Under the pieces are notes generated by a model, which worked only from the letters and a program-made list of their open reading frames with translations, was not told where the DNA came from and did not search any database. This document shows, one piece after another, positions 1 to 58,571 of a DNA stretch of 64,000 nucleotides; position 1 is the stretch's first letter, and every line of letters begins with the position of its first letter. The stretch comes from Verrucomicrobiales bacterium (GTDB lineage: Bacteria; Verrucomicrobiota; Verrucomicrobiia; Limisphaerales; UBA1100). Position numbers and translations under genes: made by a program. The stretch is taken from the NCBI GenBank assembly GCA_005809105.1, contig SYLI01000027.1:1-64000 (forward strand). The letters are read 5' to 3'.

Positions 1-2036
1 CGCCGCACAATCTGGGCGAGGTGATTGACGCTGTCTGCGCGCAAATCGACGATCCGGACATCACCATCAAGGCGCTCATGAAGCGTCTCAAGGGGCCGGA
101 TTTTCCCACGGGTTGCACCGTGTGCGGACTGGCGCCCATCCAGCAATACTTCGAGACGGGCAGGGGATCGATCAAGGTCCGCGGCCGAGTGGGGGTTGAA
201 CAAGTCAAGGGCGGGCGCGAACAGCTCGTCATCACGGAGATCCCCTACAACGTCAACCGCGCTGTGTTGGTCGAGCGGATCGCTGACTTGGCCAATGAGA
301 AAGTGCTCCCCGAAGTCTCAGCCGTGCGGGATGAATCCGACGAGAACACCCGCGTGGTGGTGGAGCTCAAACGCGACGCCATCCCGAAGGTCGTCATCAA
401 CAATCTTTACAAGCACACCTCGCTGGAAACCAGCTTCAGCGTCAACATGCTGGCGATCGACCGCGGCCGGCCAAAGACCCTCGGGATCAAGGACCTCATC
501 AACCTCTACATCGAGCACCGGCGCGATGTGGTGATGCGCCGCACCCGGTTCGAGCTCAGGCGCGCCGAGGAGAGGGCCGAAGTGCTCGAGGGCTATCTCA
601 TCGCGCTCAGCCGGCTTGATGAATTTATCCGCATCATCCGCCAGTCCGCCAACCGCGACGAGGCGAGGGTAAAGCTCCTGGCCTTCGAATTCACCCGTGC
701 GCAGGTGGAGAAGCTCGGCATTCTCATCCGCAGCGACGCCCGCCTGAAGAATGGTCGCTACGAATTCAGCGAAGTCCAGGCCAACGCCATCCTCGACTTG
801 CGCCTCTATCAACTGACGGGGCTGGAGCAGGACAAGGTGCGAACGGAATACGGCGAGCTGGTCGCCCGCATCAAGGATCTGTTGGACATTCTGGCCCGTG
901 AAAAGCGCGTGCTGCAAATTATCAAGGATGAGCTGCAGGCCCTGAAAGCCAAGCACGCCACGGCGCGCCTCACCGAGCTGGCACCGGAGGAGGGCGAAAT
1001 GTCCATCGAGGACCTGATCGCCAACGAGGCGGTCATCATCACGCTGACCCACAGTGGCCTCATCAAGCGAACCAACCTCAACGCCTACCGGGCGCAGCGC
1101 CGCGGGGGCAAGGGCGTGCTTGGCATGGGCACGCGCAAAGCCCAGACCGAGACGGACCAGAATGATTTCATCGAGCACCTTTTCACCGCCAGCACCCACG
1201 ACTACCTGATGTTTTTCACCAACTCCGGCCGCGTCTATGTCGAGCGCGTGCACGAGGTGCCGGACATGGGGCGCGCCTCCCGTGGCCGGAGCATCGCAAA
1301 CCTGCTGGAGCTCAAGCATGGCGAGAAGATTGCCGCGCTCATCCGCGTGCAGTCGGTCACGGGCCCGAACAAGGAAGACCAGACTTGGGTGGCGCAGCAG
1401 TACATTTTCTTTGCCACGCGCGAGGGCACGGTGAAAAAGACGGCGCTCTCGGACTTTGCCAATGTGCGCCGGGGAGGCATCATCGCGATCAGCATCGATC
1501 CGGGCGACACGCTCATCGACGCAAAGCTGACGAGCGGACAGAATGATGTGGTGATCATCACCGGCACGGGGATGAGCATCCGCTTTCGAGAGGAGGACGT
1601 GCGCGACATGGGCCGCCCCGCCGCAGGCGTGCGCGGCATTCGTCTGGAGAAGGAGGATCACGTCGTCGCGCTGGCGGTGGCGGACAAGGACGCCACGCTC
1701 CTGGTTGCCGGGGAAAACGGCGTCGGCAAGCGCACGGGCTTTGAGGAGTATCGCGTGCAATCGCGCGGCGGCAAGGGCATCATCACGATGAAGACCACGG
1801 CCAAGACCGGCCGGGTGATTGGTGCGCTCACCGTCCATGACCAGGATGAGATCATGCTCATCACCGTGGGTGGACAAATGGTGCGGACGAAGGTCTCTGG
1901 AATCCGTGAGACGGGCCGCAACACGCAGGGCGTTCGGCTGGTCAATCTGGACGAGGGCGACCGGCTGCAGGACATCGCCCCGGTGATCTCCGAGCAAGAA
2001 GAGGAAGATTCAGGAGAGGCCGCGCCAGAGGCGTGA
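1..2036 (+). CDS. gyrA: DNA gyrase subunit A, 3' part (5' end outside window)
   Basis: The reading frame is open from base 3 and enters within the conserved PHNLGEV segment, so roughly the first quarter of GyrA, including the catalytic tyrosine region, lies upstream. What remains is the rest of the breakage-reunion domain, the long coiled-coil arm and the C-terminal beta-pinwheel that wraps DNA. A GyrA box (QRRGGKG) is encoded at 1095-1115, and a related QSRGGKG repeat follows later. The GyrA box separates gyrase from topoisomerase IV ParC. The tail is acidic (EQEEEDSGE), as in many GyrA proteins. GyrA works with GyrB in the cytoplasm to introduce negative supercoils. The stop codon at 2034-2036 abuts the stop of the convergent gene. 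Confidence 0.97.
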   Translation, partial: PHNLGEVIDAVCAQIDDPDITIKALMKRLKGPDFPTGCTVCGLAPIQQYFETGRGSIKVRGRVGVEQVKGGREQLVITEIPYNVNRAVLVERIADLANEKVLPEVSAVRDESDENTRVVVELKRDAIPKVVINNLYKHTSLETSFSVNMLAIDRGRPKTLGIKDLINLYIEHRRDVVMRRTRFELRRAEERAEVLEGYLIALSRLDEFIRIIRQSANRDEARVKLLAFEFTRAQVEKLGILIRSDARLKNGRYEFSEVQANAILDLRLYQLTGLEQDKVRTEYGELVARIKDLLDILAREKRVLQIIKDELQALKAKHATARLTELAPEEGEMSIEDLIANEAVIITLTHSGLIKRTNLNAYRAQRRGGKGVLGMGTRKAQTETDQNDFIEHLFTASTHDYLMFFTNSGRVYVERVHEVPDMGRASRGRSIANLLELKHGEKIAALIRVQSVTGPNKEDQTWVAQQYIFFATREGTVKKTALSDFANVRRGGIIAISIDPGDTLIDAKLTSGQNDVVIITGTGMSIRFREEDVRDMGRPAAGVRGIRLEKEDHVVALAVADKDATLLVAGENGVGKRTGFEEYRVQSRGGKGIITMKTTAKTGRVIGALTVHDQDEIMLITVGGQMVRTKVSGIRETGRNTQGVRLVNLDEGDRLQDIAPVISEQEEEDSGEAAPEA

Positions 2037-2957
2037 TCAGCAGCGGCCGTTGCAGCAACCGCTGGAAGCGGAAGTTTCCTGTATCGAGAGGGCGCTCTTC
2101 GTAGCCGGAATCGGCAGACTCGCGTTGGGTGGCTTGATGGCCTCGACCGTCACGGACCTAAATTCAATGTCTTTCACGATGCGCCAAGGCTCCTCCTTGC
2201 GACTCAGCAGGCGAACCGGTGAAAAGCCCGCCATGGTGAAGGCATTGAGAAACTCGTCCTCGCGGAAGGCGCCCGCAATGCAGCCGCTCCACAGTTCTGC
2301 GTCCTGCTGCAGTTCAGACGGAACCTCCTGGCTGCACACAATGTCAGAGATGACGGCGCGACCGCCGGGTTTGAGCACGCGGAAAAGTTCCCCAAACACC
2401 TGTCGTTTGGCGAGGGGATCCACGAGGTTGAGCACGCAATTGGAAACCACGACATCCACCGAGTCATTGCCAATCATGGGTTGCCGTGCGCGCAGTTGCG
2501 CCGCAATTTCCTCGGCGCGCAAATAGCCGGCCAGCCCGAGCAGGGGGTCACCCGACAGCGCGGCATCCAACGCCTCCAGGTCGAGCGCCAGATCTTGAAT
2601 CCGGCCTTTGCGAAAGCCGGTGTTGGCGTAGCCGATGTTTCGGGCAACTTGTGGGGCGTTGCGCCGCGCCAGAGCCAGCATGTCGTCGGACATGTCCACG
2701 CCGATGACACGCCCATGAGGGCCCACGATCTGGGAGGCGATGAAACACGCCTTTCCTGCGCCACTGCCAAGATCCAGAACGGCTTCTCCGGATTTGAGGT
2801 GCCGGCTGGGGTCGCCGCAACCGTAGTCGCGGTCGATCACCTCCTGCGGAATTGCCGCAAGCAGGCGTGGGGGATAATCCACCGCGCAGCAAAGCCCAGC
2901 ATCGGGGACTTGGGCGGCCTGTGCATAACGGGCCAGGACGGCCGATTCCATGCTCAT
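2037..2957 (-). CDS. arsM: ArsM-type SAM-dependent arsenite methyltransferase
   Basis: A 306-residue class I SAM methyltransferase. The SAM motif is VLDLGSGAGK, followed by the acidic GVDMSDDML. Cysteines match the three arsenite-binding cysteines known in ArsM: YGCGDP before the SAM motif, SNCVLNL in the middle, and SGCIAGA further on. There is also an N-terminal CC pair and a C-terminal cluster, SGCCNGRC. The likely role is stepwise methylation of As(III) for detoxification, inferred from the family and the cysteine placement. The ATG overlaps the stop of the upstream gene as ATGA, so translation is probably coupled. No arsR, arsenite pump or arsenate reductase gene is visible nearby, so an unrelated thiol or metalloid substrate cannot be excluded. 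Confidence 0.8.
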   Translation of the reverse strand: MSMESAVLARYAQAAQVPDAGLCCAVDYPPRLLAAIPQEVIDRDYGCGDPSRHLKSGEAVLDLGSGAGKACFIASQIVGPHGRVIGVDMSDDMLALARRNAPQVARNIGYANTGFRKGRIQDLALDLEALDAALSGDPLLGLAGYLRAEEIAAQLRARQPMIGNDSVDVVVSNCVLNLVDPLAKRQVFGELFRVLKPGGRAVISDIVCSQEVPSELQQDAELWSGCIAGAFREDEFLNAFTMAGFSPVRLLSRKEEPWRIVKDIEFRSVTVEAIKPPNASLPIPATKSALSIQETSASSGCCNGRC

Positions 2958-4111
2958 CGACCAATGCCCTTGCCGCGGTGAACGTAGCCTAAGGCGATGA
3001 TGCTATACGCGGTCGTCAGCGGCTTTTCCTTCTCCATCCAGCGGGGGTTTTCATTCTGCCATGAACCATCATCCTTCTGGAGCTTAAGAAGCTGCATCGC
3101 CAGATCGCGCCGCCAGTTGATTTTCTTGCCGGCCGCCGTCACGAGTTCGTCAACCCCCTGCACGCTCAGGGCCTTGGCCATGAGATAATAATAGTAGTAA
3201 AGCCCTTGGGCGCCGACGCCGGGGTTTTCCTCCAGAGTGTAGTTGTCGCCGAGCCACTTGCTGACGGCCTGGATGCGCGGATCGTCCTTCTTGAGTTGGG
3301 CGTAGGAGTAACTCAGCAACCCGGCGTAGCTGATCGAGCCGTAGCTGCGCAGCGACTTGCGGCCCGTCTTGGAATCCACAACCTCGCCCGCCATGCTGTG
3401 GCCCGGGAAATAAATGAAGCCGCCCTTCTGTTTGGGGTCCTCACTGGCCCACGGCTGCTTGTTGTGGCTGGGAAGGTTTTGGCAGTTCTGGATGAACTGG
3501 ATTGCCGCAGCCCAGTTCAGGTCTTTGACATCGGGCGAGTCGGCAACCAGGTGGCGTGAGTAATAGATCGCTTCCAGCGCCGTGAGCGTATTGTTCAGGT
3601 CTGAGTGCGGGTAGGTCTTGCCGTAGCCAATGCCGCCGTCGAGCGGATTGTCCGTCTCGCCTTTTTTGTCCAAGTCCCACTGTTCCTTGACCAGATAGGC
3701 GCGGGCACCCTTCACGGCCGCATGATACTGCGGGTCGTTGGCCGCCAGGAGTGCCATCATGGCGATGGCGGTGTTGTAGTTGGCCAGACCCTTTCCCGAA
3801 TGAATGCTGCCATCCTTCTGGACCTGCTTTAATAGAAAAGCGTAACCCGCCTTCACCCACGCGGGCTGCGCCTTCGGTGCACCGGGGTTGCTTTGGTGGG
3901 CCAGCAATGCAAGGGCCGTGACGGCGGGAAGGTCGGCGTTCATCCAGAAACCGCCCGCGTCCTGATTCTTCTCCAGCCAAGTCAGCCCCTTGTTGATGGC
4001 GCGCTGGATTTCGTTTTGGTAGGAGAGATCCGCGTCGCCCGCATTCTGCGCAACGGCGCCGGTGGCGCCCAGCCATGCGGCTAGTGTGAGGGTCAATGTG
4101 ATGGATTTCAT
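2954..4111 (-). CDS. Secreted prenyltransferase/squalene-oxidase-repeat protein (terpene-cyclase fold)
   Basis: About 385 residues from the ATG at 4111. This start gives a clean signal peptide (MKSITLTLTLAAWLGATGAVAQ); the frame is open further upstream, but that part lacks signal character. The body consists of alpha/alpha-barrel repeats such as GLTWLEKNQDAGGFW, LLKQVQKDGSIHSG and LLKLQKDDGSW, as in squalene-hopene cyclase and prenyltransferase repeats. The acidic DxDD motif that protonates squalene is not visible; the comparable place reads SDLNNTLTALEAI. Export plus loss of that motif argues against a true cyclase. Such secreted repeat proteins are frequent in Verrucomicrobiota and Planctomycetes, with unknown function. 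It is the middle gene of a three-gene minus-strand operon. Confidence 0.75.
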   Translation of the reverse strand: MKSITLTLTLAAWLGATGAVAQNAGDADLSYQNEIQRAINKGLTWLEKNQDAGGFWMNADLPAVTALALLAHQSNPGAPKAQPAWVKAGYAFLLKQVQKDGSIHSGKGLANYNTAIAMMALLAANDPQYHAAVKGARAYLVKEQWDLDKKGETDNPLDGGIGYGKTYPHSDLNNTLTALEAIYYSRHLVADSPDVKDLNWAAAIQFIQNCQNLPSHNKQPWASEDPKQKGGFIYFPGHSMAGEVVDSKTGRKSLRSYGSISYAGLLSYSYAQLKKDDPRIQAVSKWLGDNYTLEENPGVGAQGLYYYYYLMAKALSVQGVDELVTAAGKKINWRRDLAMQLLKLQKDDGSWQNENPRWMEKEKPLTTAYSIIALGYVHRGKGIGR

Positions 4112-52178: not shown

Positions 52179-52255
52179 TGGCGCGCCCGGTTGGACTCGA
52201 ACCAACGACCTGCGGTTTAGAAGACCGCTGCTCTATCCAGCTGAGCTACGGGCGC
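52179..52255 (-). tRNA. tRNA-Arg (anticodon UCU)
   Basis: A complete cloverleaf of 77 bases with the CCA end encoded. The acceptor stem GCGCCCG pairs with CGGGCGC. The D arm is GCTC-AGCTGGATA-GAGC. The anticodon arm is GCGGT-CTTCTAA-ACCGC, giving UCU, which reads AGA/AGG arginine codons. The T arm is GTTGG-TTCGAGT-CCAAC. All stems are perfect. Confidence 0.97.
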
Positions 52256-52351: not shown

Positions 52352-52543
52352 ATGAAGGCGATCTACCGCGACATGCGACTGGAGGAGCTGGTGCGACTGG
52401 AACTGCAGCTTCGCACCAAGTATCAGAAATCTAAGTCCGCTCCGGTGCAAGCGGAGTTGCGGGAAGTGGAACAGGCCGTGCGTGATAAAATCTGGAACAA
52501 GGGCGGGACTCAGAGGAAGAAGGAGCAGATGGGTGGGCTCTAG
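52352..52543 (+). CDS. 63-residue charged helical protein, unknown
   Basis: A short gene starting MKAIYRDMRLEELVRLELQL and ending QRKKEQMGGL. Almost all of it is predicted helical and rich in Glu, Lys and Arg. No family is recognised and no signal peptide is seen. Its stop lies inside the start of the next gene, an 11-base overlap, so translation may be coupled. The overlap, in-frame coding character and the RBS for the next gene inside its 3' end support it, but it could be non-coding. Confidence 0.5.
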   Translation: MKAIYRDMRLEELVRLELQLRTKYQKSKSAPVQAELREVEQAVRDKIWNKGGTQRKKEQMGGL

Positions 52544-53630
52544 TCTGCGATGGCATGTGCGGACGAACCTGGCCATTGCGCTGATCGGAGGCCTCTTAGG
52601 GTGCCTCGGTGCCGGCTGCCAATCGCTGGCCTATTACTGCCAGGCGGCGCGCGGCCAATGCGATATGCTGATCGGCCATCGCGAGGTTGCCGACATACTA
52701 GACGATCCGGCGGAATCCGATGCGCTCAAGGCCCGGCTGCGGCTGGCGATGGAGTTGCGCGAATTCGCACAAACCCAACTGGGGCTTCCGGCAGAAGGCA
52801 GTTATCTCACCTACAAGCATCTCGATCGACCCCATTCTGTGTGGGTGGTCACAGCCTCACACGAATTTTCCACGGAGCTTGAGACGTGGTGGTATCCGGT
52901 GGTTGGAAGGTTTTCCGCCCGGAGTTTTTTCAACAAGGCCGACGCCGATGCATGCGCGCAGAGGTTGCGCCAAGAACGCTTCGAGGTTCACGTCGGCGGT
53001 GCGCGGGCCTATTCCACGCTGGGTTGGTTTCGCGACCCGCTGCTCAGCACCTTCATTCACGATCCGGACACGGAACTGGCCGAGCTGCTCTTCCACGAGC
53101 TCACGCATCGTCGGCTCTTCATCGCCAATGACACCACTTTTAATGAGAGCATGGCGACTGCCGTAGGCCAGGAAGGCGTGCGGCGCTGGCTTCTCTCTCG
53201 CAAGGACGCTCCCACCCTTCAAAAATACGAGCAATCGCTGCGCCGTCAGCGCCAGTTCGTGGAGTTGATTGCGTCCACCCGGGAACAACTGCAAAGGCTC
53301 TACGTCTCCGGCTTGCGCCCGGAGGAAATGCGCACGCAAAAACAGGCCGTCCATTCGCGCATGAAGGATCGTTACGAGGAACTCAAAGTGGGGTGGGGTG
53401 GACACACCGCCTACGATCCGTGGTTTGCCCATCCTCCCACCAATCCGCGCATGGCCGGCATCGCCACCTATTATGCACACCTTCCCGCGTTCGAGGCTCT
53501 ATTGCGCCAATGCAACGGCGACCTCAACCAGTTCTTTGCCGAGGCCGAGAGCATGGGAAAGGCGCCGTCAGCCATTCGCAAATCGCGCCTCCTGGGTTTG
53601 ACGCAAAGGGCTCCTCTCTCCACAAAGTGA
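52533..53630 (+). CDS. Predicted lipoprotein aminopeptidase (PF10023 family)
   Basis: About 365 residues. The GTG at 52533 has an AGGAG 7 bases upstream. The signal peptide ends in a lipobox (LLGC or GAGC, about 24-29). The core HELTHRRLFIANDTTFNESMATAVGQEG contains HExxH (His188, His192) and the distal Glu, as in the COG4324 predicted aminopeptidase family. QSLAYYCQAARGQCDMLIG after the lipobox is typical of it. Probably a periplasmic zinc peptidase. The next gene begins 1 base after its stop, so the two may share a transcript. Confidence 0.87.
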   Translation: MGSSLRWHVRTNLAIALIGGLLGCLGAGCQSLAYYCQAARGQCDMLIGHREVADILDDPAESDALKARLRLAMELREFAQTQLGLPAEGSYLTYKHLDRPHSVWVVTASHEFSTELETWWYPVVGRFSARSFFNKADADACAQRLRQERFEVHVGGARAYSTLGWFRDPLLSTFIHDPDTELAELLFHELTHRRLFIANDTTFNESMATAVGQEGVRRWLLSRKDAPTLQKYEQSLRRQRQFVELIASTREQLQRLYVSGLRPEEMRTQKQAVHSRMKDRYEELKVGWGGHTAYDPWFAHPPTNPRMAGIATYYAHLPAFEALLRQCNGDLNQFFAEAESMGKAPSAIRKSRLLGLTQRAPLSTK

Positions 53631-53631
53631 C

Positions 53632-56214
53632 ATGAATGGCATCCAACCCATTCCTTGGGCGCCGCTCGCGGTGTGGCTGCCGGTGCTAGTGGGATTGATA
53701 ATTCTCTCCGTCCGCCTGCAATTAACCGCCACCGAGTTCGCGCTGACGTCGGCTGCCGGCGTCATGAGCTGGACTCTCTTCGAATACCTGATGCACCGCT
53801 GCCTCTTCCACTGGGAGCGCGACGATTGGGTGGGAAGGTGCGTGCAACGCATCCACGGCAAGCACCACGACTCGCCCGGCGATCTTCATCAGGCCATCGT
53901 GCCCCCGTTCAACGCCTTTGTCATTCTGCTGCCCGTGGTTGCGATGCTGTCTCTTTTGCTGCCATGGCGCCTCCTTCCAGCATTTGTGGCGGCGTTCGTC
54001 TCTGGTTATCTGGGATACGAGTACTTACACGTGGCCATCCACCGGCGCAGGCTTCATTCAAAATTGGGGCAATGGCTTCAACGCAATCACATCGCGCACC
54101 ACGGCAATGGCGAGGGCCGCTTTGGAGTCACCAGCCCCATCTGGGATTTTGTCTTGGGAACCCGCCGCGTCGCCGGTCATCACGCTGCCGAGCCCGAGAC
54201 CCGGAAAGGTGCCATTATCGCTCGATCCCAAGATGTGGCCATTCGTGTACTGATCTTCGGATGGTTTCTGGGAATGGTGCCTGCGGAGTGCGCGGAAAAG
54301 GCCCTCACTGCGCCGCCACAGGGAATCGCCATCTCTGCCGCTCAACGTTCAGCATTGATGGAGGGCCTTGAGAAACTCACCCGTGAAATTGCCGCGCTTT
54401 CAGCGCAGCCCAAGGCAGCCGCGCTCCTCCCCGACGTGCAGATTTTCCAGAACGCCGTCCAGTATGCGCTGGAGCATGAGATGTTTTACCATACCAACGA
54501 CGCATCGGCGGCTTTGAATTTACTGCGCCAGGGCATGGAGCGCGCCACGGCCTTGCGCGAGGGCAGGGCACCTTGGGCGGATGCCACAGGTCTCATCGTG
54601 CGTGGATTTGTGTCGGACATCGACCGCTCCGTCCAGCCTTACGGACTTGTCGTGCCCCCCTCCTTTTCACGCCGGATTCAAAAAGAGTGGCGGCTGGACT
54701 TTTGGCTGCACGGCCGTGACAACACCTTAAGCGAGGTGCGCTTCCTAGCCGACCGGATGAGCAAGCCCGGACCGTTTGCGCCGCCGGACACATTCGTGCT
54801 TCACCCCTACGGCCGCTATTGCAACGCCTTCAAATTCGCCGGCGAGGTTGATTGTCTGGAGGCTCAGGCTCATGTCCAACGGCACTATCCCATCGACAGC
54901 GGGCGACTCTGCATGCGCGGCTTTTCGATGGGAGGCGCTGGCGCATGGCACATGGGCGCGCACCACGCCAGTCGCTGGGCCGTCGTGGCCCCCGGTGCCG
55001 GGTTTGTCGACACCGCCATTTATCAGAATCTCAAAGCCAAGGAGCCAAAACCCCAGTGGTGGGAAGAAAAACTCTGGCACCTATACGACGTGCCTGACTA
55101 CGCCGCCAACCTTGCCAATACCACGGTGGTGGCCTACAGCGGCGAGGAGGATCCGCAAAAACAAGCCGCGCAATTGATGGAGGCGGCAATGGCGCGTGAG
55201 GGCATGAAAATGACCCATGTCGTTGGTCCGCGCACAGGCCACAAGTACGAGCCCGGCGCCAAGGCGCAGGTGGAGCGGCTGGTGGATGCGGCCGCTGCGA
55301 AGGGCCGGGACGCATCGCCAAAACAGGTGAAGTTGGTGACATGGACTTTGCGATACCCAACGATGGATTGGGTGACCCTCCAGGGATTGGAGGAGCATTG
55401 GAAAGAGGCGCGAGTGGACGCGAATCGAGAGGCACCCGGTGTTCTGGTGTTAAAGACGATCAACACGACCGCGTTAACACTCCGCCTTCCACCGGGCCCA
55501 GAGTGGAGGGAGCCCATACAGGTTCGGATTGATGGCCAAACACTTTCCGGGCGGGCAGAGCAGGGCAGCTTGCATCTTCGCAAAGTCCAGTCCAGATGGA
55601 CTATACCGCATAGAAAGGAGCAGAAACCACTCGCCAAATTGCCGGGCCTTCAGGGCCCAATCGATGACGCATTCTATTCCGCCTTCATCATGGTTCGCCC
55701 GACGGGCCCTCCGATGAATAACGCCACGGGCGCATGGGTGCAGCGCGAGATGGATCAGGCCATCGGTCAGTGGCACCGCCAGTTTCGTGGCAGGCCGCGC
55801 GTGAAGAAAGACACTGAGCTGACCGACGAGGACATCGCGGGCGCAAACCTCGTCCTGTGGGGCGACGCCTCTTCCAACCGCATTCTAAATCGCATCTCCC
55901 GCCTGTTGCCCGTGCGATGGACGCCGGAGGGTGTGCAGATCGGCGATCGTCATTGGTCTGCGGACCGTTTTGTACCCGTGTTGATTTACCCCAATCCACT
56001 CAATATGCAGCGCTATGTGGTGGTGAACAGCGGGTTCACCTTCAGTGAGTTTGGCGCGCAGAGCAATGCGCAGCAGGTTCCCAAGCTGCCCGATTATGCC
56101 GTGCTGGACATGAGCGTCCCCGCAGGACGCAGGCCAGTCAGCGGCGTCGCGCACGCCGGTTTCTTTGGGGAACACTGGGAATTGACGAGAACCGAAGGCC
56201 GTCCCGTCCGTTAA
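53632..56214 (+). CDS. Fatty acid hydroxylase-like membrane domain fused to a serine hydrolase
   Basis: 860 residues. Residues 1-200 are a sterol desaturase/fatty acid hydroxylase-type membrane domain with about four helices and all four di-iron histidine motifs: H55RCLFH60, H75GKHH79, H133VAIH137 and H153IAHH157. A further hydrophobic helix (203-219, VAIRVLIFGWFLGMVPA) then leads to an alpha/beta-hydrolase of the prolyl-oligopeptidase-like type, with GFSMGG (Ser432) and a C-terminal GHKYEP (His537); an Asp is probably in SGEEDP. A C-terminal extra domain ends the protein. A GTG at 54235 just before the internal helix could start a separate hydrolase, so the fusion is in-frame but could be two products. 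Confidence 0.82.
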   Translation: MNGIQPIPWAPLAVWLPVLVGLIILSVRLQLTATEFALTSAAGVMSWTLFEYLMHRCLFHWERDDWVGRCVQRIHGKHHDSPGDLHQAIVPPFNAFVILLPVVAMLSLLLPWRLLPAFVAAFVSGYLGYEYLHVAIHRRRLHSKLGQWLQRNHIAHHGNGEGRFGVTSPIWDFVLGTRRVAGHHAAEPETRKGAIIARSQDVAIRVLIFGWFLGMVPAECAEKALTAPPQGIAISAAQRSALMEGLEKLTREIAALSAQPKAAALLPDVQIFQNAVQYALEHEMFYHTNDASAALNLLRQGMERATALREGRAPWADATGLIVRGFVSDIDRSVQPYGLVVPPSFSRRIQKEWRLDFWLHGRDNTLSEVRFLADRMSKPGPFAPPDTFVLHPYGRYCNAFKFAGEVDCLEAQAHVQRHYPIDSGRLCMRGFSMGGAGAWHMGAHHASRWAVVAPGAGFVDTAIYQNLKAKEPKPQWWEEKLWHLYDVPDYAANLANTTVVAYSGEEDPQKQAAQLMEAAMAREGMKMTHVVGPRTGHKYEPGAKAQVERLVDAAAAKGRDASPKQVKLVTWTLRYPTMDWVTLQGLEEHWKEARVDANREAPGVLVLKTINTTALTLRLPPGPEWREPIQVRIDGQTLSGRAEQGSLHLRKVQSRWTIPHRKEQKPLAKLPGLQGPIDDAFYSAFIMVRPTGPPMNNATGAWVQREMDQAIGQWHRQFRGRPRVKKDTELTDEDIAGANLVLWGDASSNRILNRISRLLPVRWTPEGVQIGDRHWSADRFVPVLIYPNPLNMQRYVVVNSGFTFSEFGAQSNAQQVPKLPDYAVLDMSVPAGRRPVSGVAHAGFFGEHWELTRTEGRPVR

Positions 56215-56216
56215 AC

Positions 56217-58571
56217 ATGTTCTTGGGGACGATTCCAGCGCACTTGGGTTCCGCATTGGCTGGTCTCGTGGCTTGCGCCGTCGCACTCCATGCCGCGCCG
56301 ACGCCCCATTTGCCGCCTCGCCACGATCCTCCGGACCAGCCATTCCGCGTGGCGCCCATGCCGCAGAGCAGCCGCAGCATCGTCATTGCTTTGTCGGCGC
56401 AACAGCATCTGGCGTATGACACGGAACGATTCAGGGTGCACACGATGTGGAAAGGAGGGCCGCTCAACCTTTACGGCCCAGGCTACCACGGAGCCAAGGA
56501 ACCGTTCATTTGCCAGCCCAATGGCGAACGCCTTTGGGGAAACCCGCCCATTCCTGAATGGCGCTGGAAGGCGGCCGGCAGCGTCATCTCTGCGACCAAC
56601 CTGCGGCCCGCAAACTTGCGATTCGTGGCGATCAGCACCAAGCGCGAACATCCCACGTTCATCTATGAGCTTCTTGCGGGCGAAGGAGCTCCCGTGCGCA
56701 TCCATGAAACCCCCACGGCAGTGCAATGGGGGAATGTAGGAGCAGTGTCCCGAATGATTTCGGTCGGCCCCCGTTCTGGCCCCATCACGTTCCGCGCTCA
56801 TCTTGAGGCAGGGACGCTTCTGTTGGGGCGCAAAACGTTTGGAGCCATCCAGCGCACCAACGATGTCCTGGCGGTGGCTCTTCGCGCGGCAGATCCTTTG
56901 CCGGTTTGCGACATCACAGAACGCTTAGTCGCCTACTCCGAGGAAGTCTTCACCGAAGCTGGCGCCAGCAAGGGCAATCCTCGCAAGGGAGTGCGAGGCC
57001 CACACGTGGAGTTTGCGGTGCACTTGCCTGCTGCGACGGTTGCCACCCAGTTCGAAGTGCTTACGGCGGTTGTTCCTGACGAAGCGACGGCGCAAAAACT
57101 TGCCGCCATGTTGCCCCCAACTCAGGCCGCAATGCCCGATGGCGCATGGTTCGCTTCCACGCAACATTCGTTGGTTGCGCGCAAACCCTTTGTCGCCACA
57201 GCCGATGTGGCACCCCGCCGCAGCTTGGTCCGCAGCGCGCATTATAAGGTGGAGGCTTTGCCCGTCCCGAAATCATTGGAACTACTGGTGACAGGCATGG
57301 ACTGGTTGCCCAACGGCGACCTTGCCGTTTGCACTTGGCTGGGGGACATCGTGATCGTGCGCGGCGCTGCCGGCGATCCAGCAAAGGCAACGTACACCCG
57401 GGTTGCGCGCGGACTTAACGAGCCGCTCGGACTGGTGGTGGTTAATGGAAAGATTGTGGTGGCGCAAAAGAGTGAGCTCACTCGCATTTCCGACACCGAC
57501 TCGGATGGCGAGGCAGACCTCTTTGAGTGCCTCAACAACCAGTGGGATTACACGGGAGGCTACAATTCCTTCGTGTACGGGCCGGTGAGCGACGCGGCGG
57601 GTAACCTGGTGGTGGCCAACGCGGCGCACGGCGGGCGGTGGGACGCCAGGTACATGGGCTGGGCTTTGCGCATCAGTCCCGATGGCCGGAAGCTTGAGCC
57701 CATCTCAAGCGGGTTGCGCGAGCCCAACGGCATCGGTGTGTTTGGCGCCGCGCGCGACGTGTTCGTCACCGAGAACCAAGGCCAGTGGATCGGCGCCTGC
57801 AAATTAAATCACCTGCAGAAAGGCCGCTTCTTTGGTCACCCTTCTTCGTGGCCTGCGCCGCAGGCAGATTACAAGGGACGCAGCGCATTCGATCCGCCTG
57901 CCGTGTGGTTCCCTTACAAGCTGGCACGCTCCACCACTGGGCTTGTCGAAATCACAGGCGATGAGCTGGGGCCCTTCAAGGGACAGTTGCTTGTGGGTGA
58001 CTTTCAGAATGCGCTCTTGATGCGCGTGCAACTGGAGAAGGTCGGCGGACAGTGGCAGGGAGCGGTTTGGCCCTTTCTCAGCGGCTTTCTCTCCGGGGTC
58101 AACCGCCTTTCCATCGGGCCTGATGGCGCACTCTATGTGGGCGGATGCCAGCGCACATGGGTGTCGGTGGCTCCCCAATCCTACGCCTTGGAGCGCGTGA
58201 CGTTTAATGGTTCGGTGCCCTTTGAAATTCTGGAGGCTCATGCGCGGTCCGACGGGTTTGATTTGCGGCTCACCAAGCCCATTTCCAGCAAGACGACCGT
58301 CGAGGATTTCGACGTGTGGCAGTACAACTACAAATACCACGCAGGGTATGGATCGCCAGAACTTGATCACGATGGCAACCCGGATCGCCAGACGGTCATC
58401 CGAGTGAAAACGATCGCGCTCACAGCAGACGGTCGCGGTCTCCGGCTTGGGCTGGAAGGTTTGAAGGCCGGTTACGTGACGGCCGTGCGCGCTGCGGGTG
58501 TGCGAGGGGCAGGTGGTGAATCCCTGCTCCATGACACGTTCTACTACACGCTGAACCAAATCCCACGGTAG
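56217..58571 (+). CDS. Secreted six-bladed propeller protein, second paralog
   Basis: 784 residues. The N-terminus has signal-peptide character (LGSALAGLVACAVALHAAPT). An N-terminal beta domain (HLAYDTERFRVHTMWKGGPL) resembles that of the 32390-34684 protein, and the propeller part follows: LVTGMDWLPNGDLAVCTWLGD, SDTDSDGEADLFECLNN, SDAAGNLVVANAAHGG, REPNGIGVFGAARDVF. No heme CxxCH is seen. It lies 2 bases after the hydroxylase-hydrolase gene, so they are co-transcribed. Likely acts in the periplasm or on the cell surface; substrate unknown. Confidence 0.8.
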   Translation: MFLGTIPAHLGSALAGLVACAVALHAAPTPHLPPRHDPPDQPFRVAPMPQSSRSIVIALSAQQHLAYDTERFRVHTMWKGGPLNLYGPGYHGAKEPFICQPNGERLWGNPPIPEWRWKAAGSVISATNLRPANLRFVAISTKREHPTFIYELLAGEGAPVRIHETPTAVQWGNVGAVSRMISVGPRSGPITFRAHLEAGTLLLGRKTFGAIQRTNDVLAVALRAADPLPVCDITERLVAYSEEVFTEAGASKGNPRKGVRGPHVEFAVHLPAATVATQFEVLTAVVPDEATAQKLAAMLPPTQAAMPDGAWFASTQHSLVARKPFVATADVAPRRSLVRSAHYKVEALPVPKSLELLVTGMDWLPNGDLAVCTWLGDIVIVRGAAGDPAKATYTRVARGLNEPLGLVVVNGKIVVAQKSELTRISDTDSDGEADLFECLNNQWDYTGGYNSFVYGPVSDAAGNLVVANAAHGGRWDARYMGWALRISPDGRKLEPISSGLREPNGIGVFGAARDVFVTENQGQWIGACKLNHLQKGRFFGHPSSWPAPQADYKGRSAFDPPAVWFPYKLARSTTGLVEITGDELGPFKGQLLVGDFQNALLMRVQLEKVGGQWQGAVWPFLSGFLSGVNRLSIGPDGALYVGGCQRTWVSVAPQSYALERVTFNGSVPFEILEAHARSDGFDLRLTKPISSKTTVEDFDVWQYNYKYHAGYGSPELDHDGNPDRQTVIRVKTIALTADGRGLRLGLEGLKAGYVTAVRAAGVRGAGGESLLHDTFYYTLNQIPR

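Follow-up and report, generated by a model that had tools for sequence, protein, structure and literature searches.

We found that a single open frame joins a fatty-acid hydroxylase to an esterase-like alpha/beta-hydrolase in the window, by which we mean the whole stretch of 64,000 nucleotides of Verrucomicrobiales contig SYLI01000027.1 that was analysed. The frame is probably a lineage-specific fusion that arose when the hydroxylase gene lost its stop codon, in an operon of closely packed genes (aminopeptidase, hydroxylase, hydrolase and GSDH-like, in this order). Because every relative examined keeps the two genes apart, an ordinary local accident is the most likely explanation, rather than a new two-in-one enzyme. 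The feature is real as written, and is either a stop-loss fusion of two ordinary enzymes, seen in one genome, or a base error; a new enzyme architecture is not demonstrated by this frame.

Two enzyme domains in one frame

The frame (53632-56214, forward strand) starts with ATG and continues for 860 codons, specifying 860 aa, with no internal stop. As the original prediction had proposed, it contains both a membrane hydroxylase and a serine hydrolase (Table 1), and the presence of these two domains in one frame is far beyond chance. In the hydroxylase part, the Pfam family PF04116 (FA_hydroxylase) matched aa 42-177 with an E value of 2.5e-17 and a score of 64 bits, against a cut-off of 31. The four histidine motifs expected of such an enzyme were confirmed as HRCLFH (H55, H60), HGKHH (H75, H78, H79), HVAIH (H133, H137) and HIAHH (H153, H156, H157), together giving the ligand pattern HxxxxH, HxxHH, HxxxH and HxxHH, and all ten histidines aligned with histidines of yeast SCS7 (4zr1, E 2e-17). 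SCS7, a ceramide very long chain fatty acid hydroxylase of the same family (PF04116; PDB 4zr0/4zr1), has these ten histidines in common with the window enzyme and a membrane core of like length; however, the window enzyme lacks the cytochrome b5 part and its C-terminus continues into the hydrolase. Acyl-chain hydroxylation is the predicted, and probably the ordinary, role of this part. Its single-sequence AlphaFold model was poor (pLDDT 49.6) and was set aside.

Table 1. Positions in the window of the parts of the fused frame and of the adjoining genes
Feature	Position	Strand	Evidence
Putative aminopeptidase (PF10023), upstream neighbour	52482..53630	+	Pfam E 2.8e-105; same order in G001
Fatty-acid hydroxylase (PF04116) part, aa 1-183, four histidine motifs	53632..54180	+	Pfam; SCS7 alignment; 58% identity to a separate 202-aa gene of G001
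18-codon join, HAAEPETRKGAIIARSQD	54181..54234	+	Not clearly matched in other hydroxylases
Former signal peptide of the hydrolase, now internal: MAIRVLIFGWFLGMVPAECA, followed by EK, if GTG 54235 is the start	54235..54294	+	Hydrophobic aa 202-221; relatives; cleavage site by eye
Alpha/beta-hydrolase (esterase-like), S432/D507/H537, with C-terminal mixed domain	54295..56214	+	Pfam; 14-sequence alignment; AlphaFold; Foldseek
DUF7133/GSDH-like protein, downstream neighbour	56217..58571	+	Starts 2 bases past the hydrolase stop; the two genes adjoin across the family

The hydrolase part, about 640 aa long, matched PF00326 (Peptidase_S9) at aa 407-544 (E 2.6e-7) and, slightly under the cut-off, PF00756 (Esterase) at aa 415-523 (E 4e-4), and the esterase-type matches of the frame in NCBIfam were weak and sub-threshold. 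The motifs GFSMGG and GHKYEP, already recognized in the original prediction, carry two members of a catalytic triad formed by S432 (GFSMGG), D507 (YSGEEDP) and H537 (TGHKYEP), and all three residues were invariant in an alignment of 14 homologues. The AlphaFold model of the hydrolase had a pLDDT of 85.7, and the closest solved structures, by profile and by fold, were mostly esterases, namely LC-Est1C, S-formylglutathione hydrolases and feruloyl esterases (PDB 3wyd, 7xrt, 1jjf, 7l0a), which have the same GxSxGG nucleophile, Asp, His and alpha/beta fold; Foldseek aligned the hydrolase with esterase structures at E values of about 1e-10 across the catalytic part. Unlike these esterases, the window hydrolase is longer, with a helical part at the N-terminus and a mixed domain at the C-terminus, and the match covers the catalytic part only. 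The original prediction described this domain as prolyl-oligopeptidase-like; prolyl oligopeptidase (S9) proper has a beta-propeller beside its catalytic domain, whereas no propeller-like run of strands was found in the AlphaFold secondary structure of the hydrolase, the N-terminal part of which is helical. Since the model lacks a propeller, the label is a loose one; S9 structures aligned over only about 270-290 columns, which correspond to the catalytic part (Foldseek).

Both halves look intact in sequence, without strong sign of decay. We rejected the idea that the hydroxylase is decaying, because the identities of the fused half to outgroups are near those of the separate hydroxylase of G001, the sole other genome of the genus compared (45.0 vs 44.2% to G013, 44.4 vs 44.8% to G011 and 40.0 vs 45.3% to G012, for the window and G001, respectively). 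For the hydrolase, identity to the outgroup G005 was 55.9% in the window and 58.7% in G001.

The join and the former signal peptide

A hydrophobic stretch at aa 202-221 separates the two domains, in agreement with the helix that had been predicted there; the stretch begins with the codon GTG 54235. Homologous hydrolases begin with a signal peptide directly ahead of the PPxGI region, at the place matching GTG 54235, and their genes are separate from the hydroxylase genes, which supports the earlier proposal that a stop was lost and the old signal peptide became internal. The signal peptide and its cleavage site, after ..AECA and before EK, were assigned by eye. Related hydroxylases end in ..LGTRLRS, or in ..NTRRNNLHSNNPPHPHITVP in the case of G001, so that their stop lies at or shortly past the GTR/GTW motif.

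An unrelated stretch of 18 codons with the base composition of the window stays open in about 59% of cases, and, as one third of junctions are in frame, an open frame is to be expected about one time in five where the two genes adjoin and the old stop is gone. In addition, for five of the 18 join codons (GAG 54190, GAG 54196, AAA 54205, CGA 54223 and CAA 54229), a single substitution would create a stop. Given this composition and these near-stop codons, the openness of the join is by itself weak evidence of selection, and a consensus error at any of the five codons could mimic a fusion. It is unlikely, but deserves some weight, that the frame is such a sequence artefact or a strain-level variant, in which a stop ends the hydroxylase and the hydrolase is made separately from GTG 54235; this would agree with the two genes of the relatives and with the complete signal peptide that GTG 54235 alone yields, but the join is a clean open frame that needs no frameshift, the flanks are syntenic with G001, and no Shine-Dalgarno-like stretch was seen just ahead of GTG 54235, although other genes here are likewise without one.

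Gene order in the window and in the sister genome

A single base separates the aminopeptidase stop from the hydroxylase ATG. The hydrolase and the GSDH/DUF7133-like gene (window 54235-58571) form an adjoining pair that is kept across the family. A tRNA-Arg (tct) gene at window 52179-52255, on the reverse strand, lies between a dihydropteroate-synthase-like gene and the aminopeptidase, and a PSCyt2/PSD1 gene was identified by Pfam in the surroundings. This gene content and the nearest named records suggest a metagenome-assembled genome of Verrucomicrobiota type. A contig chimera at the fusion was rejected, since both flanks are syntenic with G001.

In G001, the genes are ordered, on the reverse strand of L032, as aminopeptidase, hydroxylase (202 aa), ceramidase-like gene (474 aa), hydrolase and GSDH-like gene, with identities to the window of about 58% for the hydroxylase and about 70% for the hydrolase. 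The intervening gene (L032:2329-3753, reverse strand), which encodes a neutral/alkaline-ceramidase-like protein (PF04734, E 1.1e-11), is missing between hydroxylase and hydrolase in the window. Its ATG is overlapped by the hydroxylase stop, and the signal-peptide region of the hydrolase begins at the stop of this ceramidase-like gene. A match of the window protein in G001 that begins at residue 137 and contains two stops was interpreted as running on spuriously into the ceramidase-like gene; the actual hydroxylase is located about 1.3 kb further upstream. Relatives of the ceramidase-like gene are common in the order.

In the G001 hydrolase (L032:353-2296, reverse strand), the signal peptide is not preceded by an ATG, GTG or TTG. 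The ceramidase-like stop is overlapped by an ATA, and 7 bases upstream of this ATA stands a GGAGG, a sequence arrangement that suggests a near-cognate start or one changed base. The lack of a standard start, as if the start had come from upstream, together with the finding that no other genome among the 40 relatives searched has a ceramidase-like gene beside this hydrolase, could be read to mean that the fusion is ancestral in the genus and was later split in G001 by the ceramidase-like gene. We consider this quite improbable, however, because in G001 neighbouring genes are in contact over a few bases at both ends, the GGAGG before ATA resembles an ordinary coupled start in which one base has changed, and outside the genus the hydrolase is a separate gene that has a start of its own.

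Search for the fusion in relatives

The original prediction had raised the question of whether the same fusion occurs in other genomes; related genomes encode two genes in every case examined, the outcome that it had set as marking the fusion as local or artefactual. Among the 293 genomes of the order, no hydroxylase homologue was found in a frame of more than 343 aa, except that of the window (870), and the fusion was absent both from the PF04116 hits reported in 388 genomes of the phylum and, beyond the window, from 20 genomes of the family, absence at each of these levels being judged from the open-frame length for each hydroxylase hit reported. The hydrolase was matched in 172 of the 293 order genomes (E 1e-12), although a few of these matches fall in the hydroxylase part or hit distant hydrolases, and hydroxylase homologues of the window type were present in 16. 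Fifteen named genome_contigs loci match the window protein from residue 190 on only, that is, in the hydrolase part. Other genomes of the family have the hydrolase together with the GSDH-like gene, with or without the aminopeptidase, and the hydroxylase is absent from these clusters; hydroxylases, where present, are encoded by separate genes elsewhere, and the hydrolases carry their own signal peptide. The hydroxylase-hydrolase architecture was found in one genome, and in no second species.

The longest other PF04116 frames in the 388 phylum genomes carry GH3 domains, a ferredoxin-reductase-like part (assigned by eye, in two genomes) or an N-terminal rhodanese domain (L108:1683-4250; L109, minus strand, 1691-3787 in reverse-complement coordinates; L110:1060-3051; L114:763-2148). 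Like the window frame, these place PF04116 in frame with a second enzyme domain, but their partners differ from that of the window and the events are unrelated. A search of the literature on hydroxylase fusions and on this gene context returned nothing relevant.

These distributions do not support the idea, put forward with the original prediction, that lipid hydroxylation is coupled to hydrolysis, as the fusion is present in one genome and nearly all relatives have the hydrolase without a nearby hydroxylase. A working bifunctional enzyme, in which a lipid hydroxylase in the membrane holds a periplasmic esterase that serves the same lipid or pathway, would be consistent with the single open frame and its two complete active sites, with a topology that fits export of the C-terminal part, and with the sharing of one operon by both genes in two species of the genus. 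We nevertheless regard it as very unlikely, considering that it has been seen once, that the hydrolase is widespread without the hydroxylase (172 vs 16 of 293 genomes), that the two active sites would face opposite sides of the membrane and that the join has no conserved sequence. There is similarly little likelihood that the fusion serves to fix the operon products one-to-one, as a bifunctional chain joined by the former signal peptide and possibly split again by signal peptidase.

Origin and probable product of the fusion

According to the stop-loss explanation that we prefer, the hydroxylase would read straight into the signal peptide of the hydrolase once its stop was gone, and the loss of the stop was perhaps tied to the loss of the ceramidase-like gene. 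Two orders of events can be envisaged. In one, a pair of hydroxylase and ceramidase-like genes would have entered between the aminopeptidase and the hydrolase, the window lineage later losing the ceramidase-like gene and the stop; in the other, the ceramidase-like gene would have entered in G001 only. Because the 40 relatives show no other such neighbour, this gene may be an insertion in G001, rather than a loss from the window.

The product is most likely an 860-aa inner-membrane protein. In known members of the PF04116 superfamily, the hydroxylase histidines face the cytosol, and the hydroxylase part of the fusion would accordingly be expected to stay in the inner membrane with its histidines on that side. 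Judging from topology rules, the former signal peptide would insert as a further helix and carry the hydrolase across the membrane; positive residues (RKGAIIAR..R) precede it, and export of the hydrolase is therefore favoured. The hydrolase may then stay tethered or be freed by signal peptidase at the AECA site, and some free hydrolase may also arise by initiation at GTG 54235. Each half would keep its ordinary job, the one hydroxylating lipid acyl chains and the other hydrolysing esters outside the cytoplasm. From gene context, a shared pathway of the two is possible: in G001 the hydrolase shares its operon with an SCS7-like hydroxylase and a ceramidase-like protein, a combination that hints at a lipid with an amide or ester linkage.

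The frame cautions against taking one long frame with two domains, found in a single metagenome-assembled genome, as evidence for a functional two-domain enzyme. It also represents a small, clear case of gene fusion in a compact operon, in which a signal peptide turns into a helix inside the chain after loss of a stop, and export of the second protein remains possible.
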